A stretch of DNA of 61,787 bases, taken from positions 1 to 61,787 of the forward strand of contig MFXT01000022.1 in NCBI GenBank assembly GCA_001788955.1, written 5' to 3'. The notes beneath the pieces were generated by a model. The model had not been told where the DNA came from, did not search any database, and saw nothing but the letters and a program-made list of their open reading frames with translations. The stretch's first letter is position 1. Each line of letters starts with the position of its first letter. Positions 19,424-55,048 of this stretch are shown here, one piece after another. A program made the position numbers and the translations under genes. This DNA is from Candidatus Peribacteria bacterium RIFCSPHIGHO2_02_FULL_49_16. Lineage in GTDB: Bacteria > Patescibacteriota > Gracilibacteria > Peribacterales > Peribacteraceae.

Positions 19424-20791
19424 ATGGTGACGTCATCGATTCCGGCATTAGATTCTCCCCCCCATTCCCCGGAAGCGGAACGGACGGTTCTTGGGGCTCT
19501 TCTTGTAGATCCGGAAGCGATTATTCGCGTATCCGATTTCCTGCGTCCTGAAGATTTCTACGATCCAAAATATCGTCTGGTCTTTCAGACGATGATGGAT
19601 TTATATCAGAAGCACGAACTCATTGATTTCGTCACGATTGCGGATCAATTAAGTGACCATAAGCAAATTGAAGAGATTGGCGGAAGCGCATTTTTGGCAG
19701 AATTGGCATCTTCAGTGCCCACGGCATCTCATGTCTATCAATATGGACAGATTGTTAAAGAGAAGGCCGTACATCGACGTATTATCGAAGCAGGACGAAC
19801 AATCGTGGGTTTGGGATTCCATCTGGATACACCGGTTATCGAGCTTCTTGATGCAGTGGAGCGCGAAGTTTTTCAGGTGACGAATACGTTTCTAAAAGAG
19901 AAATTCATTCATATTCGCGATATTCTTTCAGAACGCTACGAGCGTTTTGCCGAAATGCATGAAACGGAAGACAAGGAGGCAGTGAAGGGAGTGCCGACAG
20001 GATTTCAGGCATTGGATAGGAAACTTTCCGGACTGCAACCGAGTGATCTTATCATTGTTGCAGCGCGTCCCAGCATGGGAAAGACGAGCTTTGCCTTAAA
20101 TGTTGCCCAAAATGCCGCTGTCCGTTTTGGAAAATCGGTCGGAATATTTTCTTTGGAGATGAGTAAGGAACAATTAGTCGATCGTTTGTTTTCTTCTATG
20201 CTTGGCGTGGATTCGTGGAAGTTGCAACGTGGAAAGCTGGATGATAGTGATTTTCAGAATATGGGTCCGATTATGGATGAACTTGGGAAAGCGAATATTT
20301 TTATTGATGATGCCGTCGCTTCTTCTCTGACAGAACTGCGAACGAAGGCGCGTCGACTTCAGATGGAACATGGTTTGGATCTGATCGTCGTCGACTATAT
20401 ACAACTTTTGACAACGGGAAATGCGAGTTATGCCGGGAACCGCGTGCAGGAAATTTCAGAAATTTCCCGTTCGTTAAAGCAAATTGCCCGTGAACTTCAT
20501 ATACCTGTCATGGCATTGTCGCAGCTTTCACGGGCTGTGGAAAGTCGACCGGGAAACATCCCGGCGCTTTCTGATCTGCGTGATTCCGGTTCGATTGAGC
20601 AGGATGCGGATGTGGTTCTGATGATGTATCGCGAGGATTATTATGACGAGGATAGCGATCGTCCCGGCATGACAGATCTCTACATTCGTAAACACAGAAA
20701 CGGCCCCACGGGTCGTACGGAACTTCTCTTCAAAAAAGAACAGATGCGTTTTTACGACGTCGATACGATCCATAGTTTGGACGAGATGTAA
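19424..20791 (+). CDS. dnaB: replicative DNA helicase DnaB
   Basis: 455 residues. The N-terminal DnaB domain (PHSPEAERTVLGALLVDPEAI) and linker are followed by the RecA-like helicase core with Walker A ARPSMGKTS (214-222), DLIVVDYIQLL (Walker B), and the ALSQLSRAVESRPGNIPALSDLRDSGSIEQDAD block. It is the hexameric 5'-3' helicase at the replication fork. No intein interrupts the Walker A region. It sits between recA and mraY on the same strand. Confidence 0.97.
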   Translation: MVTSSIPALDSPPHSPEAERTVLGALLVDPEAIIRVSDFLRPEDFYDPKYRLVFQTMMDLYQKHELIDFVTIADQLSDHKQIEEIGGSAFLAELASSVPTASHVYQYGQIVKEKAVHRRIIEAGRTIVGLGFHLDTPVIELLDAVEREVFQVTNTFLKEKFIHIRDILSERYERFAEMHETEDKEAVKGVPTGFQALDRKLSGLQPSDLIIVAARPSMGKTSFALNVAQNAAVRFGKSVGIFSLEMSKEQLVDRLFSSMLGVDSWKLQRGKLDDSDFQNMGPIMDELGKANIFIDDAVASSLTELRTKARRLQMEHGLDLIVVDYIQLLTTGNASYAGNRVQEISEISRSLKQIARELHIPVMALSQLSRAVESRPGNIPALSDLRDSGSIEQDADVVLMMYREDYYDEDSDRPGMTDLYIRKHRNGPTGRTELLFKKEQMRFYDVDTIHSLDEM

Positions 20792-25862: not shown

Positions 25863-26746
25863 TGAATTATTCACGCGTGGGCCTGACGGTCAAATCAGAT
25901 TTCAATGAGAAGGACAGTGCCGTTTCGGATGTCATGGAAGTGCTCTGCGATTTGGATGTTGATGTTCAGGTAGATGCAGAGCGCATCGGTGAACTTTTCT
26001 GTACGCGCAGATTCGCATCATCAATTGATTATGGCAATATAGATCTTCTTATCGTCATTGGGGGTGATGGAACAATTTTGCGTGCCGTGCGGGATCTCAA
26101 GAACTTTTCTGTGCCAATTGTGAGTATCGACAGAGGTTCTGTGGGTTTTTTGACAGAGATTCATGTAGATGATGTAAAGAAGTCTCTTGCGAAGCTTCTT
26201 CATGGCGATGGCGTTTTCGATGAACGAACATTGCTTCATACCGAAGTGCATCGTGGTTCAGAAATACTCTTCAAAGGATATGTGCTTAACGACGCCGTTA
26301 TTGCTCAAGGCGCCATTGCGCGACTCGTCGATCTTTCTGCGCGCGTGAATGGGGAGGATCTCACAGTATTTCATGCTGACGGTATTATTCTTTCCACACC
26401 GACAGGATCAACGGCATATTCGCTTGCTGCAGGAGGTCCGATTGTGCATCCGCAGCTCGATGCGATGATTCTCACACCACTGAATCCGCATAGTTTCAGT
26501 CAGAAACCGATCGTTATTCCCGGGGATCAGAAAGTCGAAATCGAAGTTCTTCCCCGTCCGAATCGTTTTTTTGATACGCAATTGAGCTTAACGCTCGATG
26601 GACAGGTATATTTTGAACTGCAATATCAGGATCGTGTGACGGCATTCATGAATGGCACAACGATTAAATTCCTGCGCCACAAAAAAGATACATTTTTCCC
26701 GACGCTTCGTTCCAAGCTCAAATGGGGCGAGAGACTGGAGAATTAG
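25859..26746 (+). CDS. nadK: NAD kinase
   Basis: 295 residues of the ATP/polyphosphate NAD kinase family, which makes NADP. The GGDGT motif (IVIGGDGTILRAVRDL), GSVGFLTEI, LNDAVIAQG and the DGIILSTPTGSTAYSLAAGGPIVHP block are all present. The start overlaps the glycosyltransferase stop by 4 bp. The stop overlaps that of a convergent gene by 4 bp. A supply of NADP would fit the GapB-like dehydrogenase and 6-phosphogluconate dehydrogenase in the same segment. Confidence 0.96.
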   Translation: MMNYSRVGLTVKSDFNEKDSAVSDVMEVLCDLDVDVQVDAERIGELFCTRRFASSIDYGNIDLLIVIGGDGTILRAVRDLKNFSVPIVSIDRGSVGFLTEIHVDDVKKSLAKLLHGDGVFDERTLLHTEVHRGSEILFKGYVLNDAVIAQGAIARLVDLSARVNGEDLTVFHADGIILSTPTGSTAYSLAAGGPIVHPQLDAMILTPLNPHSFSQKPIVIPGDQKVEIEVLPRPNRFFDTQLSLTLDGQVYFELQYQDRVTAFMNGTTIKFLRHKKDTFFPTLRSKLKWGERLEN

Positions 26747-27243
26747 TTTGGATACAACAGTGCTTTGGTGGCAATAGCACGCATGCGATCTTCTTCCTGA
26801 AGTTGAATGGTCAGAATCCGTGCAACAGTGCACTCCTGTTTTGTGAAAAGGGGCACTTGATACCGTGCAAAAAATTCGAGTAGCCTGTCACGTTCTTCGA
26901 CGGAAGAAAATCCAATCACTGTACGCATAACGGGGTTATTGCGCATATGTTTTTCGATGTATTCAACGGCATGCGCTTCGGGGTCAACCAAAGTAAGTAC
27001 ATCTGATTCTTTGATCCATCGGGTGTTTCGATGATCAGGAAGAATATCGGTTAACTGATGATCATAAATATGGAGCGGTATGGCATGCGTATGTGCAATG
27101 TCTTCGACCTCGGAACGGAAATAATCAAGCCAATCATTAATGAATGCATTGTATTTTTCAGGATTTTTTAAGAATGTATACCAACTCGTCTCCTGTGGTC
27201 GCAGGATGGTGACATCGCACCCGTGGATGTCAGCCATAGACAT
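26743..27243 (-). CDS. hypothetical protein, 166 aa
   Basis: A soluble protein of mixed alpha/beta composition (MSMADIHGCDVTILRPQETSW at the start; FARYQVPLFTKQECTVARIL near the end). The second half resembles a small Rossmann-like or regulatory domain, but no family was recognised. The frame is open to 27309, which would overlap prmC by 55 bp; the ATG at 27243 has GGAG about 11 nt upstream and is preferred. It appears to be cotranscribed with prmC. Confidence 0.65.
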   Translation of the reverse strand: MSMADIHGCDVTILRPQETSWYTFLKNPEKYNAFINDWLDYFRSEVEDIAHTHAIPLHIYDHQLTDILPDHRNTRWIKESDVLTLVDPEAHAVEYIEKHMRNNPVMRTVIGFSSVEERDRLLEFFARYQVPLFTKQECTVARILTIQLQEEDRMRAIATKALLYPN

Positions 27244-27254
27244 ATCAGAACATA

Positions 27255-28103
27255 CTACTCCATTTGTGACAATTTGTCCATTGCGAATTCTTTTTGATCG
27301 TGTCTGCATTCAATGATTATGCCAAGACAGAATGGATGTTTTTGTGCTTTTTTTATGAGATTTTTGAGGATGTATGTTCCAGCATTTCCGCCAAAGAGCG
27401 CACCGTGCGGCTCGTAATTTTTGATATCCGGAGATACGTTCTCATCATCCGGAATGTATGGCGGATTGGAAATGATGAGAAAAGGCATGTCGAGATCCAT
27501 CATTGGATCGAGCAGACTCCCCTGTCGAAAATCAATGCGCCGATCGACGCCATGCTTCTGTGCATTTTTTTGTGCGACGATCAATGCATCATGGCTGATG
27601 TCTGTGGCAATAATGTTCACGTCGGGTCTTTCACAGGCAAGCGTTACGGCAATGCATCCGGAGCCGCTCCCGACGTCGATGAGGATAGGTTGTACAGAAC
27701 CGGACGAAGTGGGACTGCGTACGAAGAGATGAGCGATGCCGATTATTTCGGAATCGATGAAGCGACAGTGAAAAGTGTTTGCCGATCGTGGGCTCTGCGA
27801 AGGGTGAAGTATTTCGAGGGTGAGATCGATCAATCCCTCTGTGCTTGGTCGTGGAATGAGTACTCGTGGATCGACATCGAACATCCTTCCATAAAATTCT
27901 TTTTCTCCTGTAATATAGGCCACAGGTTCTCCTCCACTTCGTCGCGTGATCCATTCTGCAAACAGCTGCTGCTGATCTGATGTGAGAGCGTGTTCTGGAT
28001 GGGCAAGAATCCAAGATCGGTCTTTGTGCAGAATATGCACTAAAAGAACCTCGCAATCTTCCGTTGCAATGCCTGATTGCTTGACTCCTTGTTCTATTCT
28101 CAT
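27255..28103 (-). CDS. prmC: peptide chain release factor N5-glutamine methyltransferase
   Basis: 282 residues. An N-terminal helical domain is followed by an AdoMet methyltransferase fold with LIDVGSGSGCIAVTLA and the catalytic SNPPYIPDDE. The GGQ glutamine of release factors is the expected substrate. Between the GEKEFYGRMFDVDPRVLIPRPSTEGLI block and the SAM motif there is an insertion of about 30 residues (from SPRSANTF) not usual in the family. The ATG at 28103 is chosen because TATCAT on this strand ends 6 nt before it, within an 18-bp spacer shared with a divergent glycosyltransferase gene. Confidence 0.92.
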   Translation of the reverse strand: MRIEQGVKQSGIATEDCEVLLVHILHKDRSWILAHPEHALTSDQQQLFAEWITRRSGGEPVAYITGEKEFYGRMFDVDPRVLIPRPSTEGLIDLTLEILHPSQSPRSANTFHCRFIDSEIIGIAHLFVRSPTSSGSVQPILIDVGSGSGCIAVTLACERPDVNIIATDISHDALIVAQKNAQKHGVDRRIDFRQGSLLDPMMDLDMPFLIISNPPYIPDDENVSPDIKNYEPHGALFGGNAGTYILKNLIKKAQKHPFCLGIIIECRHDQKEFAMDKLSQME

Positions 28104-28120
28104 TGCTGTATGATACAGCA
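28104..28120. promoter_or_regulatory. palindromic bidirectional -10 promoter between prmC and a glycosyltransferase
   Basis: The whole 18-bp spacer is essentially one palindrome, TGCTGTAT-G-ATACAGCA (8-bp arms). It reads TATGAT on the plus strand (28109-28114), 7 nt before ATG 28122. It reads TATCAT on the minus strand (28115-28110), 6 nt before ATG 28103. Both mRNAs would be leaderless and the two polymerases cannot bind together. Confidence 0.7.
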
Positions 28121-28121
28121 C

Positions 28122-29150
28122 ATGATGCACGTGGGCATTGATTGCCGTTTTGCCAGTACAAAGAGCGGGCTGGGATGCTACACGCGAGAATTGGTAAAAG
28201 CACTCCTTCAACGTGACGATCCTATTCGTTACACACTATTTACACGATTGAAGGATGACGGTTGGTTACGGGCGCTACCGCCTACAACCTACGGCCTACA
28301 ACCTACCGCCTATTCCCATTACTCTCTCGCCGAACAACTCCTCCTTCCCGGAGCCATTCGTCATGCAAAGGTCGATCTGTATTTTGCACCACATTTTAAT
28401 ATTCCCCTCTTATGCCCCGTACCGTTTATTGTGACGATTCACGATCTGATACTTCATCGCTTTCCTAACCACGCATCACTCTTTCGTCAATTTGCATATC
28501 GCACGGTAATGAACCATGCCGTCAAACGTGCAAAACATGTGATTACGGTCAGTAAAACGGTGGCAGATGATCTCATGAAGATGTATAGCCTCGCAGAGGA
28601 TGCGGTTTCGATTATTCACGAAGCAGTGAATCCCCTCTTTTGCCCGCAATCTTTGGAAATACAGAAATCGGTTCGTGAAAAATATTTCCTGAATAAGCCA
28701 TTTTTTCTCTATGTCGGTAACACGAAGCAACACAAGAATATTCCTCTTCTTATCGAAGCATTTACAAAAAGTGATTGCATGGGTACCGAACTTGTTCTTG
28801 TGATTGGTGAGGGTACTCTTCCTAAAGAAGTCGCCGGTGTGCGCGTTTTACAAACTATTCCGACAGATGATCTTCCCGCACTCTACTGTGCGGCGCGTGC
28901 ATTCATCACGGCGACATCCTATGAAGGATTCTGTTTGCCGGTTGCAGAAGCACTTGCATGCGGATGTCCGGTTATCGCGACGCGTACCGGAGCAATTATG
29001 GAGATGATTGGAAATCGTGGAATGTTTATTGAACCAACAGTACATTCACTGATTTCCGCATATAAAAATCCCCCGTTTCATTCGCATGAACGATGGAACC
29101 GGGGGTGGGAAGACGTTGCGCAGCAGACGGTAAAGAACATCAGTCGTTGA
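28122..29150 (+). CDS. GT4-type glycosyltransferase
   Basis: 342 residues, GT-B fold. It begins MHVGIDCRFASTKSGLGCYTREL, a typical GT4 opening; donor-site sequence is SYEGFCLPVAEALACGCPVIATRTGAIMEMIG. VGNTKQHKNIPLLIEAF marks the start of the C-terminal domain. Residues about 52-65 (PTTYGLQPTAYS) are encoded by a heptanucleotide tandem repeat and look like an insertion. The Ala/Pro-rich stretch aside, the protein is complete. It overlaps the convergent SLH/Calx-beta gene by 11 bp. Confidence 0.88.
   Translation: MMHVGIDCRFASTKSGLGCYTRELVKALLQRDDPIRYTLFTRLKDDGWLRALPPTTYGLQPTAYSHYSLAEQLLLPGAIRHAKVDLYFAPHFNIPLLCPVPFIVTIHDLILHRFPNHASLFRQFAYRTVMNHAVKRAKHVITVSKTVADDLMKMYSLAEDAVSIIHEAVNPLFCPQSLEIQKSVREKYFLNKPFFLYVGNTKQHKNIPLLIEAFTKSDCMGTELVLVIGEGTLPKEVAGVRVLQTIPTDDLPALYCAARAFITATSYEGFCLPVAEALACGCPVIATRTGAIMEMIGNRGMFIEPTVHSLISAYKNPPFHSHERWNRGWEDVAQQTVKNISR
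28274..28315. repeat. heptanucleotide tandem repeat (CCTACNN family) inside a glycosyltransferase gene
   Basis: Six consecutive 7-bp units: GCTACCG, CCTACAA, CCTACGG, CCTACAA, CCTACCG and CCTATTC. The 42 bp equal 14 codons, so the frame is preserved. Related units, in inverse orientation, fill a spacer at 56170-56197. Confidence 0.85.
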
Positions 29151-52069: not shown

Positions 52070-52711
52070 TTATTTCTTATATTTCTCCCAATCATCCAAA
52101 AACTTCTTTAATCCCGTATCTGTCAGAGGGTGTTTGGGCAGTTTCAGGAAGACATCGTAGGGGAGGGTGCAGATGTGTGCGCCAAGGATTGCTGCTTCTC
52201 TGATGTGATCAGGATGACGCACGGAAGCAACAAGCACCTCGGTATCAAAATCATAGTGTTTCCATGCTGCCATAATGTCTGCAATAAGATGCATCCCCTC
52301 TTCTCCGGCATCATCGAGTCGTCCAATAAAAGGACTGATGATATTCGCACCGGCTTTTGCGGCAAGAATGGCTTGATTCAGAGAAAAAACAAGTGTCGTA
52401 TTCGTCCGGATTCCTTTTGTGCGAAAAGAGGAAAGCGCTTTGAGCCCTTCCGTCGTCATCGGCACTTTGACGACAATATGTTTGTGCCAGCCGGAATATT
52501 CCTCTCCTTGTTTCTTCATTCCTTCAAAATCTTCTGCTGTCACTTGTGCACTCACACAACCGACAAGATCGCACATGTTCAGAACTGTTTCTTTAAAATC
52601 TTTTCCTTCTTTTGCGATGAGACTCGGATTCGTTGTTACACCGTCGAGGATTCCCCACGAAGCAATTTCTGCAACGTGATCGATGTTGGCTGTATCGAGA
52701 AATAATTTCAT
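52070..52711 (-). CDS. tal: transaldolase
   Basis: 213 residues, the short (TalC/MipB-like) transaldolase form. LFLDTANIDHV, GVTTNPSLIAKEG, IVVKVPMTTEGLKAL with the Schiff-base Lys and ISPFIGRLDD are diagnostic. It exchanges a dihydroxyacetone unit between sedoheptulose-7-phosphate and glyceraldehyde-3-phosphate; some relatives are fructose-6-phosphate aldolases. ATG at 52711 is preferred to an upstream GTG because TAGACT ends 8 nt before it on this strand. Confidence 0.95.
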   Translation of the reverse strand: MKLFLDTANIDHVAEIASWGILDGVTTNPSLIAKEGKDFKETVLNMCDLVGCVSAQVTAEDFEGMKKQGEEYSGWHKHIVVKVPMTTEGLKALSSFRTKGIRTNTTLVFSLNQAILAAKAGANIISPFIGRLDDAGEEGMHLIADIMAAWKHYDFDTEVLVASVRHPDHIREAAILGAHICTLPYDVFLKLPKHPLTDTGLKKFLDDWEKYKK

Positions 52712-52726
52712 ATACACTTAGTCTAC
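52712..52726. promoter_or_regulatory. interleaved divergent promoters of tal-gnd and tkt
   Basis: Only 15 bp separate the two ATGs. TACACT (52713-52718) ends 8 nt before the tkt ATG, and TAGACT on the minus strand (52725-52720) ends 8 nt before the tal ATG. The two -10 elements are back to back, separated by a single base. Confidence 0.65.
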
Positions 52727-55048
52727 ATGCCACGACCTGATCCACAATCTCTCATTGGCAAAAACACCAAGGATGTGCCCATGTCTCTTCAGCGTCTTGC
52801 TGCACATTGGAATGAAAGAGCGGAGTCGATTTGGATTGGCCCGGATGATGCGGTTGATCTTGCACATGATGAGAAACGCGCGTACGAACTTGCACATCAC
52901 ATTCTTTGTCACTTGGCCATTCAGGCGCCGACAAAACACGCATCCGGTCATCCCGGCGGTCCTCTTTCTGCGTTTACATTTGCCTATACTCTTTCGAAGA
53001 TGCGCGATCCGTCGGTGGATCAGCCGCTTCGGATGAGTGCAGGGCATCTTTCTATTTTGGCCTATGGTCTGCAGTGGCTCTTTGGTCGGGAAGGGAACGA
53101 TCTGCGTCTGCAGAGTCCGCAGGCGATTATTGACGCATTTCGCACGACGGACGGACTTGCCGGTCATGCAGAAGCCGGCATCGGCGACATTCCTTTTGGA
53201 GCGGGTCCGCTTGGAAAAGGTGTAAGCAATGGAGTGGGAGCGGCGTTTGGGCTGAAGCATCTGAAGAAAGGTGGATTTGTTGATGTTCTTCTTGCGGATG
53301 GCGATTGCCAGGAAGGGCAAGTCATTGAGGCATTCCGTCTTGCGGCACACTTGCAGCTCGATCATCTTGTCGTGCATGGAGATTGGAATGATATTCAGTT
53401 GAGTGACATGCCCTCGAAAACCGTTGCATCCGACTTCGCATCGATTGCCGAAGCCTCTGGGTGGCAGGTTATTGAAGTGCAGAATGGAAATGATCCTGGA
53501 CAAGTCAAAGCTGCTCTGAATGCAGTAAAGGGTGGTAGACCGACATTCATCTGTTACTACACCACCATGGGCCACGGGGTTCGTGTCATGGAAGAGGGGT
53601 CCGATACGGGAAAAGAGAATTTTCATGGCACGCCACTGAATCAGGAAGTGGCTGATGAAGCATTACAAGATTTGCCTCCACTCGAAGAACTCGTGAAAGA
53701 ATATGAAAAATATCGGAAAGCAGAAAAAAAGAGATATACAGCGAAAGTTCCTGTTTCTACTGATTTGGAGCTTACATTTCAACTTCCAAGCACCAAATTT
53801 CAAAGGATTCTTCTGCAAGAAAAAGGGGCGGCGCGGAAGGATTTCGGCGCGGTGCATCTGAAAAATCTCATGGAGCATGACGAACGGATCGTTGTTCTTC
53901 ATGCAGATCTTGCAGGATCGGGTGGATTCGATGCGGTTGAGAAAGTATTTCCTGATCGGGTGATCAATGTCGGTGTTGCGGAGGCGAATATGGTCATGAT
54001 GGCGGCGGGAATGCGGCAGGTGGGACTTTTACCTGTTACGTATACCTTTGCGGCATTTGGAACGAACGAAGCGCGTGCCAATGCGCGTTTGATCGATATC
54101 AACTGCGGACATACGCGATGTGCGGTGCTCCATGACTGTACGCATTCTGGATTAAGTGTTGGTGAGGATGGTGAAACCCATCAGGAGCAGAATTATTTGA
54201 ATATTCCTTTCCATCACACACAGGTCTGGATGCCTGCAGACAGTAATCAAGCCGGAGCAATGGCGGAACGTAGCCTGGAGCTCATTGCAGAAGGACATAC
54301 GAGTGTGTATGTCTTTTCCGCGCGTACAGGGCATGAGCAGATCAAAAAAGAAGATGGATCACTCTTTTTTGATCGGGAGTACGTTTTCGATGGGAAAGCG
54401 GATATTTTTCGCGGTAATGGTGATACATCAGATGATGTTACGCTTGTTGCGACAGGAATCGCCGTTCATGCTGCATTGGCAGCGTGGACAGAAATCAGAA
54501 ATCAGAAATCAGAAATCAGAATACGAGTGCTCAATGTTCCTTGTATTCGTCCGTTGGATGCGACTGCAGTTATGCAAGCGGCATTCGAAACGGGACATCT
54601 CGTTATTGTGGAAGATCATAACATCGAAGGCGGACTCGCGACGCAGGTCGCCGATGTGATCGCCGATTTCGCGCTTCCCTGCACGTTGCGTCGTTTGGGG
54701 ATTCGCAACTACTTTCCCTCGGGTGCGGCAGAGGATTTGATGAAGATCGCGGGAATCGATAGCCATTCCATTATGGATGCTGTTAAAGATGAAGTGCAAG
54801 GAGAAGTCTGTGGTGGAGAAGATGTGTTCGTTCGTTGCATCAATGACATTATTCATAATATCCAGCATTCACGTTTTCGGGCAACAGCGATGCCATTCGT
54901 GGAAAAACTCCTAAACGAAAAAGAGTATATACATGCGCTTCGTGAGTACCATAAAGGCAGGGCATGTCTGAAAGCAAAACTTCCGTCAAACGAAGAACTA
55001 CAGAGCGTGCTTAAGATGGCTTGCCATGAAGTTGAGCGAACAAAGTGA
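52727..55048 (+). CDS. tkt: transketolase
   Basis: 773 residues. The N-terminal TPP domain has HASGHPGGPLSAF and the GDG motif LADGDCQEGQ with HGDWNDIQ; the central pyrimidine domain has HADLAGSGGFDAVE, VGVAEANMVMMAAG, and the C-terminal domain starts near 560. It moves two-carbon units between pentose and hexose phosphates. About residues 588-600 (TEIRNQKSEIRIRVL) derive from a heptanucleotide repeat and do not look like family sequence. It is longer than typical TKT (about 660), partly at the N-terminus. tRNA-Ser follows 12 bp later. Confidence 0.96.
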   Translation: MPRPDPQSLIGKNTKDVPMSLQRLAAHWNERAESIWIGPDDAVDLAHDEKRAYELAHHILCHLAIQAPTKHASGHPGGPLSAFTFAYTLSKMRDPSVDQPLRMSAGHLSILAYGLQWLFGREGNDLRLQSPQAIIDAFRTTDGLAGHAEAGIGDIPFGAGPLGKGVSNGVGAAFGLKHLKKGGFVDVLLADGDCQEGQVIEAFRLAAHLQLDHLVVHGDWNDIQLSDMPSKTVASDFASIAEASGWQVIEVQNGNDPGQVKAALNAVKGGRPTFICYYTTMGHGVRVMEEGSDTGKENFHGTPLNQEVADEALQDLPPLEELVKEYEKYRKAEKKRYTAKVPVSTDLELTFQLPSTKFQRILLQEKGAARKDFGAVHLKNLMEHDERIVVLHADLAGSGGFDAVEKVFPDRVINVGVAEANMVMMAAGMRQVGLLPVTYTFAAFGTNEARANARLIDINCGHTRCAVLHDCTHSGLSVGEDGETHQEQNYLNIPFHHTQVWMPADSNQAGAMAERSLELIAEGHTSVYVFSARTGHEQIKKEDGSLFFDREYVFDGKADIFRGNGDTSDDVTLVATGIAVHAALAAWTEIRNQKSEIRIRVLNVPCIRPLDATAVMQAAFETGHLVIVEDHNIEGGLATQVADVIADFALPCTLRRLGIRNYFPSGAAEDLMKIAGIDSHSIMDAVKDEVQGEVCGGEDVFVRCINDIIHNIQHSRFRATAMPFVEKLLNEKEYIHALREYHKGRACLKAKLPSNEELQSVLKMACHEVERTK
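54492..54519. repeat. heptanucleotide tandem repeat (AAATCAG x 4) inside tkt
   Basis: Four exact AAATCAG units lie just after the start of the C-terminal domain of transketolase. The partial unit aatacga follows and the frame stays open. It is the cleanest copy of the repeat family also seen at 25311. Confidence 0.88.

Follow-up and report, generated by a model that had tools for sequence, protein, structure and literature searches.

Bidirectional promoters have so far been recognised mainly through maps of transcription starts. In the accounts of them that are available in PMC10268837 and PMC12825309, both citing Warman et al. (2021), the -10 element is symmetrical, -7T and -11A are reciprocally paired between the strands, and 18 bp is the most frequent distance between the two starts. 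In tests on five bidirectional promoters of E. coli, polymerases did not compete at basal activity; competition arose only once one of the directions had been strongly activated (PMC12825309). Leaderless transcripts are mentioned in neither PMC12825309 nor PMC10268837, and a full-text search for literature joining leaderless and bidirectional promoters returned, by title and abstract, nothing evidently on point. The nearest other case of exclusive sites is found in EcoRV-type restriction-modification systems, where the polymerase sites of two divergent promoters overlap and a C protein exerts control from an operator (PMC5333194). As regards the lineage considered here, Candidatus Peribacter riflensis has been listed among the Shine-Dalgarno (SD)-scarce bacteria (7% SD, without a conserved CCUCC), and the loss of the anti-SD sequence in this lineage is already on record (PMC10783764); the topic of that work is translation signals, and shared promoters are not described there.

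The DNA analysed in this study (the window; 61,787 nucleotides) comes from an uncultured Peribacteraceae bacterium and contains a prmC gene and a glycosyltransferase gene (GT) arranged head-to-head, with 18 bp between their start codons. With a probability of roughly 0.86, this gap is one minimal bidirectional promoter, whose two mRNAs would both be leaderless or nearly so. The following features were distinguished:

27255..28103, minus strand: prmC, encoding release factor N5-glutamine methyltransferase (TIGR03534, E 2.4e-63, above cut-off; PrmC_N), with its ATG at 28103; predicted leaderless
28104..28121, both strands: intergenic gap of 18 bp, TGCTGTATGATACAGCAC, between the ATGs of prmC (minus) and GT (plus), from sequence
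28104..28120, both strands: perfect palindrome of 17 bp (8+1+8), TGCTGTAT-G-ATACAGCA, with a central G, from sequence
28109..28115, both strands: predicted shared symmetrical -10 core TATGATA, 7 bp, from sequence and from conservation in all 29 compact relatives (defined below)
28122..29150, plus strand: GT, encoding a GT4-family glycosyltransferase (Pfam PF00534, Glycos_transf_1; PF13439, Glyco_transf_4), with its ATG at 28122; predicted leaderless or nearly so

The TIGR03534 match and the Pfam GT4 domains bear out the identities given to both genes in the initial annotation. Both start codons are supported, because homology within the family begins at the ATGs 28103 and 28122. Read directly on the plus strand, positions 28101-28124 are CAT TGCTGTATGATACAGCAC ATG. 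Downstream of prmC, on the same strand, lies a further gene (26743-27237), for which Pfam and NCBIfam searches gave no match.

The GT-direction hexamer TATGAT (28109-28114, plus strand) is placed 7 nt before the GT ATG, and the prmC-direction hexamer TATCAT (28115-28110, minus strand) 6 nt before the prmC ATG, just as the initial annotation had read them; both distances are those of leaderless genes, in which the -10 hexamer stands some 6-8 nt before the start. Two base pairs, 28110 and 28114, supply the -11A and -7T of both promoters, i.e., they show the reciprocal pairing that marks a symmetrical bidirectional promoter. Inspection of the 18-bp gap revealed no SD sequence, and a promoter search of the gap region found no -35-like hexamer at 16-18 nt in either direction. 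The locus thus resembles the promoters of Warman et al. (2021), as far as the two accounts cited above present them, in having one -10 element common to both strands, with -7T/-11A reciprocally paired, in its position between divergent genes, and in its expected starts about 18 bp apart. It differs from them in its conservation across a family, in that the starts are here predicted from DNA, and in that leaderless mRNAs are predicted in both directions, so that the whole intergenic region would be the shared core. As judged from these features, it appears to be unusually strongly conserved and a minimal representative of an already known promoter type. The likeness to the EcoRV-type systems (PMC5333194) is that the divergent polymerase sites overlap, and occupancy would therefore be exclusive in both; unlike those systems, with their C protein and operator, the prmC/GT gap shows no conserved operator.

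The palindrome, which had been thought to fill the 18-bp gap, is real but spans only 17 bp, since a single C (28121) follows it. Its perfection is at the level of chance, because 0.95 perfect 8+1+8 palindromes are expected per window from base composition and two were observed; the other one, GAAATTTC-A-GAAATTTC, lies within a coding region (20450-20466). The exact 17-mer of the gap has one occurrence in the 917-kb genome. What goes beyond chance is where the palindrome lies and how well its core is conserved, not its perfection.

We propose that RNA polymerase with the housekeeping sigma factor would bind the TATGATA core in either orientation. One orientation would lead to a start on or beside the A of the GT ATG (28122), the other to a start at the A of the prmC ATG (28103); the symmetrical core thus very probably directs transcription of both genes to begin at their first codons or immediately beside them, and the geometry predicts divergent starts 18-19 bp apart. 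A single 7-bp core could serve both genes because the flipped-out A-11 of each promoter pairs with the flipped-out T-7 of the other. Both mRNAs, leaderless or nearly so, would be translated without SD pairing, as is usual in Peribacteraceae, and two polymerases could not occupy the core simultaneously.

PrmC searches over the Peribacteraceae provided 55 loci for comparison, in 48 of which a GT is divergently adjacent (head-to-head) to prmC. No such GT was found near prmC in 17 loci from other families of the class, and the pair therefore looks family-specific. The compact relatives comprise 29 genomes of 22 genera with the two ATGs 17-23 bp apart, the commonest gap being exactly 18 bp (15/29); the end branches of PrmC measure about 0.5 changes per column, which makes these genomes old relatives. 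With the gap numbered from the prmC side, none of the 29 compact relatives differs in the core letters T6, A7 and T11, and 25 of them have T at position 8 and 27 have A at position 10; position 9 takes all four letters and most of the flanks are variable. The prmC hexamer (NANNNT) ends exactly 6 nt before the prmC start in every case. The GT hexamer TANNNT is likewise present in 29/29, at 6-12 nt before the GT start (7 nt in 15 genomes; 25 genomes fall within 6-9 nt and the remaining four within 10-12 nt), and with the widest spacings some GT messages may have a short leader, about 5 nt at most. At its outer position the core is only partly symmetrical, the -12 base of prmC being T in 11, C in 16 and G in 2 compact relatives. 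A trade between C at -12 and an upstream TG on the prmC side (7/16 vs 1/11) was too weak to claim. In one genome (G014) the prmC start lies further in, and the sequence CAT-ACCCG-TATAGTA-CCTTT-ATG still has a 17-bp gap and a symmetrical core. The conservation of the -10 symmetry, named in the initial annotation as a test, thus held among the compact relatives. Its view of the palindrome as two leaderless promoters is well supported by the comparison as regards one shared symmetrical -10 for two genes that are leaderless or almost so, but the working part is the 7-bp TATNATA/G core, and the palindrome arms are unconserved beyond the genus.

Leaderless -10 boxes are in wide use across these genomes. 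Genome-scale statistics were drawn from a sample of stretches, and in all three sampled family genomes TANNNT peaks 6-8 nt before gene starts. Depending on the class of neighbouring genes, it precedes about 18-40% of starts vs 0.6-2.5% of internal ATGs (rough gene calls), the lowest class being the closely spaced genes of G028, with 3%; SD-like motifs are no commoner at gene starts than at internal ATGs in the sampled genomes. The 16S rRNA 3' end of the present bacterium (L163, G000:C6:34075-35726) is GGAACGTTTCC, not GGATCACCTCC, and is without the CCUCC anti-SD core; with no SD in the gap and this 3' end, the two genes have no usable SD signal. Just 2 of the 18 Peribacteraceae inspected keep CCTCC at the 16S 3' end (16/18 are without it), and most other families of the class retain CACCTCC. 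The altered 16S 3' bases appear to pair with GGGAA/GGGAG just downstream. The locus and its hosts are like the SD-scarce leaderless bacteria of PMC10783764: the lineage is the same, there is little SD signal, the 16S 3' end is altered, and the -10 box of leaderless genes stands 6-8 nt before the start codon. As start codons mark transcription starts in a leaderless lineage, a bidirectional promoter becomes readable from DNA alone, and the evolution of such a promoter could be traced through dozens of uncultured genomes.

The symmetry would be incidental if the core were used by prmC only and GT were transcribed from elsewhere. The rigid spacing of the prmC hexamer, compared with 6 to 12 nt on the GT side, agrees with such use, as does the survival of leaderless prmC promoters after gene separation (e.g., in G004, G013 and G022). 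We rejected this explanation, which we consider quite unlikely, because it is contradicted by the invariance of T6. A7 and T11 each have two roles, as the -7T and -11A of prmC and simultaneously as the -11A and -7T of GT; T6 is the -12T of GT but merely the -6 base of the prmC promoter, and is useful to the GT promoter only. Among ordinary TANNNT leaderless promoters of the three sampled family genomes the -6 base is A in 41/139 (about 30%), whereas at the corresponding place of the prmC promoter all 29 compact gaps have A (T6); the genomes are related, hence no formal probability is attached to this difference, which points to use in the GT direction. Moreover, the ever-present GT hexamer matches better at -12 than the prmC side does, and T6 is replaced by C, with the prmC hexamer retained, both in G022, in which 63 bp separate the genes and the GT start is displaced, and in G009, where GT has no ATG at the usual place. 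It is very unlikely that a dimeric repressor, LexA-like or of another type, uses the palindrome as its operator and acts over both genes. The dyad is perfect over 17 bp in this genome and has one mismatch in the sister species, and its CTGTAT...ATACAG presumably resembles SOS-box half sites. However, the outer arms pair no more than shuffled columns among the 29 relatives, except for a weak outermost pair (p 0.015, uncorrected for relatedness); only one further site within 3 mismatches occurs in the genome, and a palindrome of such length is expected about once per window. The operator was rejected. Since the outer arms are unconserved, no operator is implied, and the conserved dyad symmetry outside the -10 core that characterizes operator-controlled overlapping promoters was, apart from that outermost pair, not found among the 29 relatives.

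An extremely improbable explanation is that the conservation is protein-coding, with prmC or GT starting upstream and the core read as codons. In the window, prmC does have an in-frame GTG 6 codons before its start, GT has an in-frame ATG (28110) 4 codons before its own, and 15/29 relatives have an in-frame GT ATG inside the gap. However, an upstream in-frame prmC start within 7 codons is present in 7/29 only, and the gap length varies between 17 and 23 bp, so the core is not in a fixed frame with respect to GT. When prmC sets the frame, the T at -7, a third codon position, is kept in 29/29 and the base at -9, a first position, takes all four letters, which is the reverse of coding constraint. 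The frame and codon-position patterns thus contradict this explanation, and it was rejected.

For the shared bidirectional promoter, which we prefer, the steric exclusion of polymerases at one -10, proposed in the initial annotation, is sound. The competition between directions that was deduced from it is an inferred effect and the least secure part of that reading, given its absence at basal activity in the five E. coli promoters (PMC12825309); exclusive occupancy probably limits neither gene at ordinary promoter strength. We regard it as unlikely that selection maintains the shared core in order to couple the two genes, in such a way that exclusive polymerase binding would set the ratio, or reduce the noise, of release-factor methylation and a surface-glycan enzyme; if true, such coupling would operate in organisms that have almost no leaders or operators. 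On the PrmC tree, compact and separated states are intermixed, with 11 changes among paired loci, somewhat clustered, and in 16 of the 47 paired loci on the tree the pair is wider-spaced or differently arranged, through repeated changes. Sharing is therefore not obligatory and there is no absolute constraint; since pairs often separate, the shared promoter seems retained but dispensable, which weakens the claim that coupling of both genes is essential. As it occurs in nature in shared, shifted and separated states, the prmC/GT pair could serve to test whether bidirectionality is selected or merely tolerated.

The frequency of such cores was assessed in 57 family genomes with the strict pattern CAT-N5-TANNNTA-N5/6-ATG, the reversed pattern serving as the control. 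About 102 matches vs 79 in the control were obtained for the 18-bp gap, and 49 vs 37 for the 17-bp gap. As this is barely above the control, shared leaderless cores are at most slightly enriched, and prmC/GT is an exception. Two other head-to-head pairs of the window were considered as conserved compact pairs: wecA-like/pgk (1147-1165; 17-bp gap AAGCTACATTAGTATGC, core TACATTA), which was rejected since its gaps are mostly long in relatives, and transaldolase/transketolase (tal/tkt; 52711-52727; 15-bp gap with two non-overlapping -10-like hexamers), rejected since its compactness is not kept in relatives. A further candidate, the TAGTATA core of L048 (7709-7732), was set aside as an apparently one-directional leaderless promoter, located 6 nt before the gene of a surface-like protein with calcium-binding repeats; similar sequence matches are present in several relatives.
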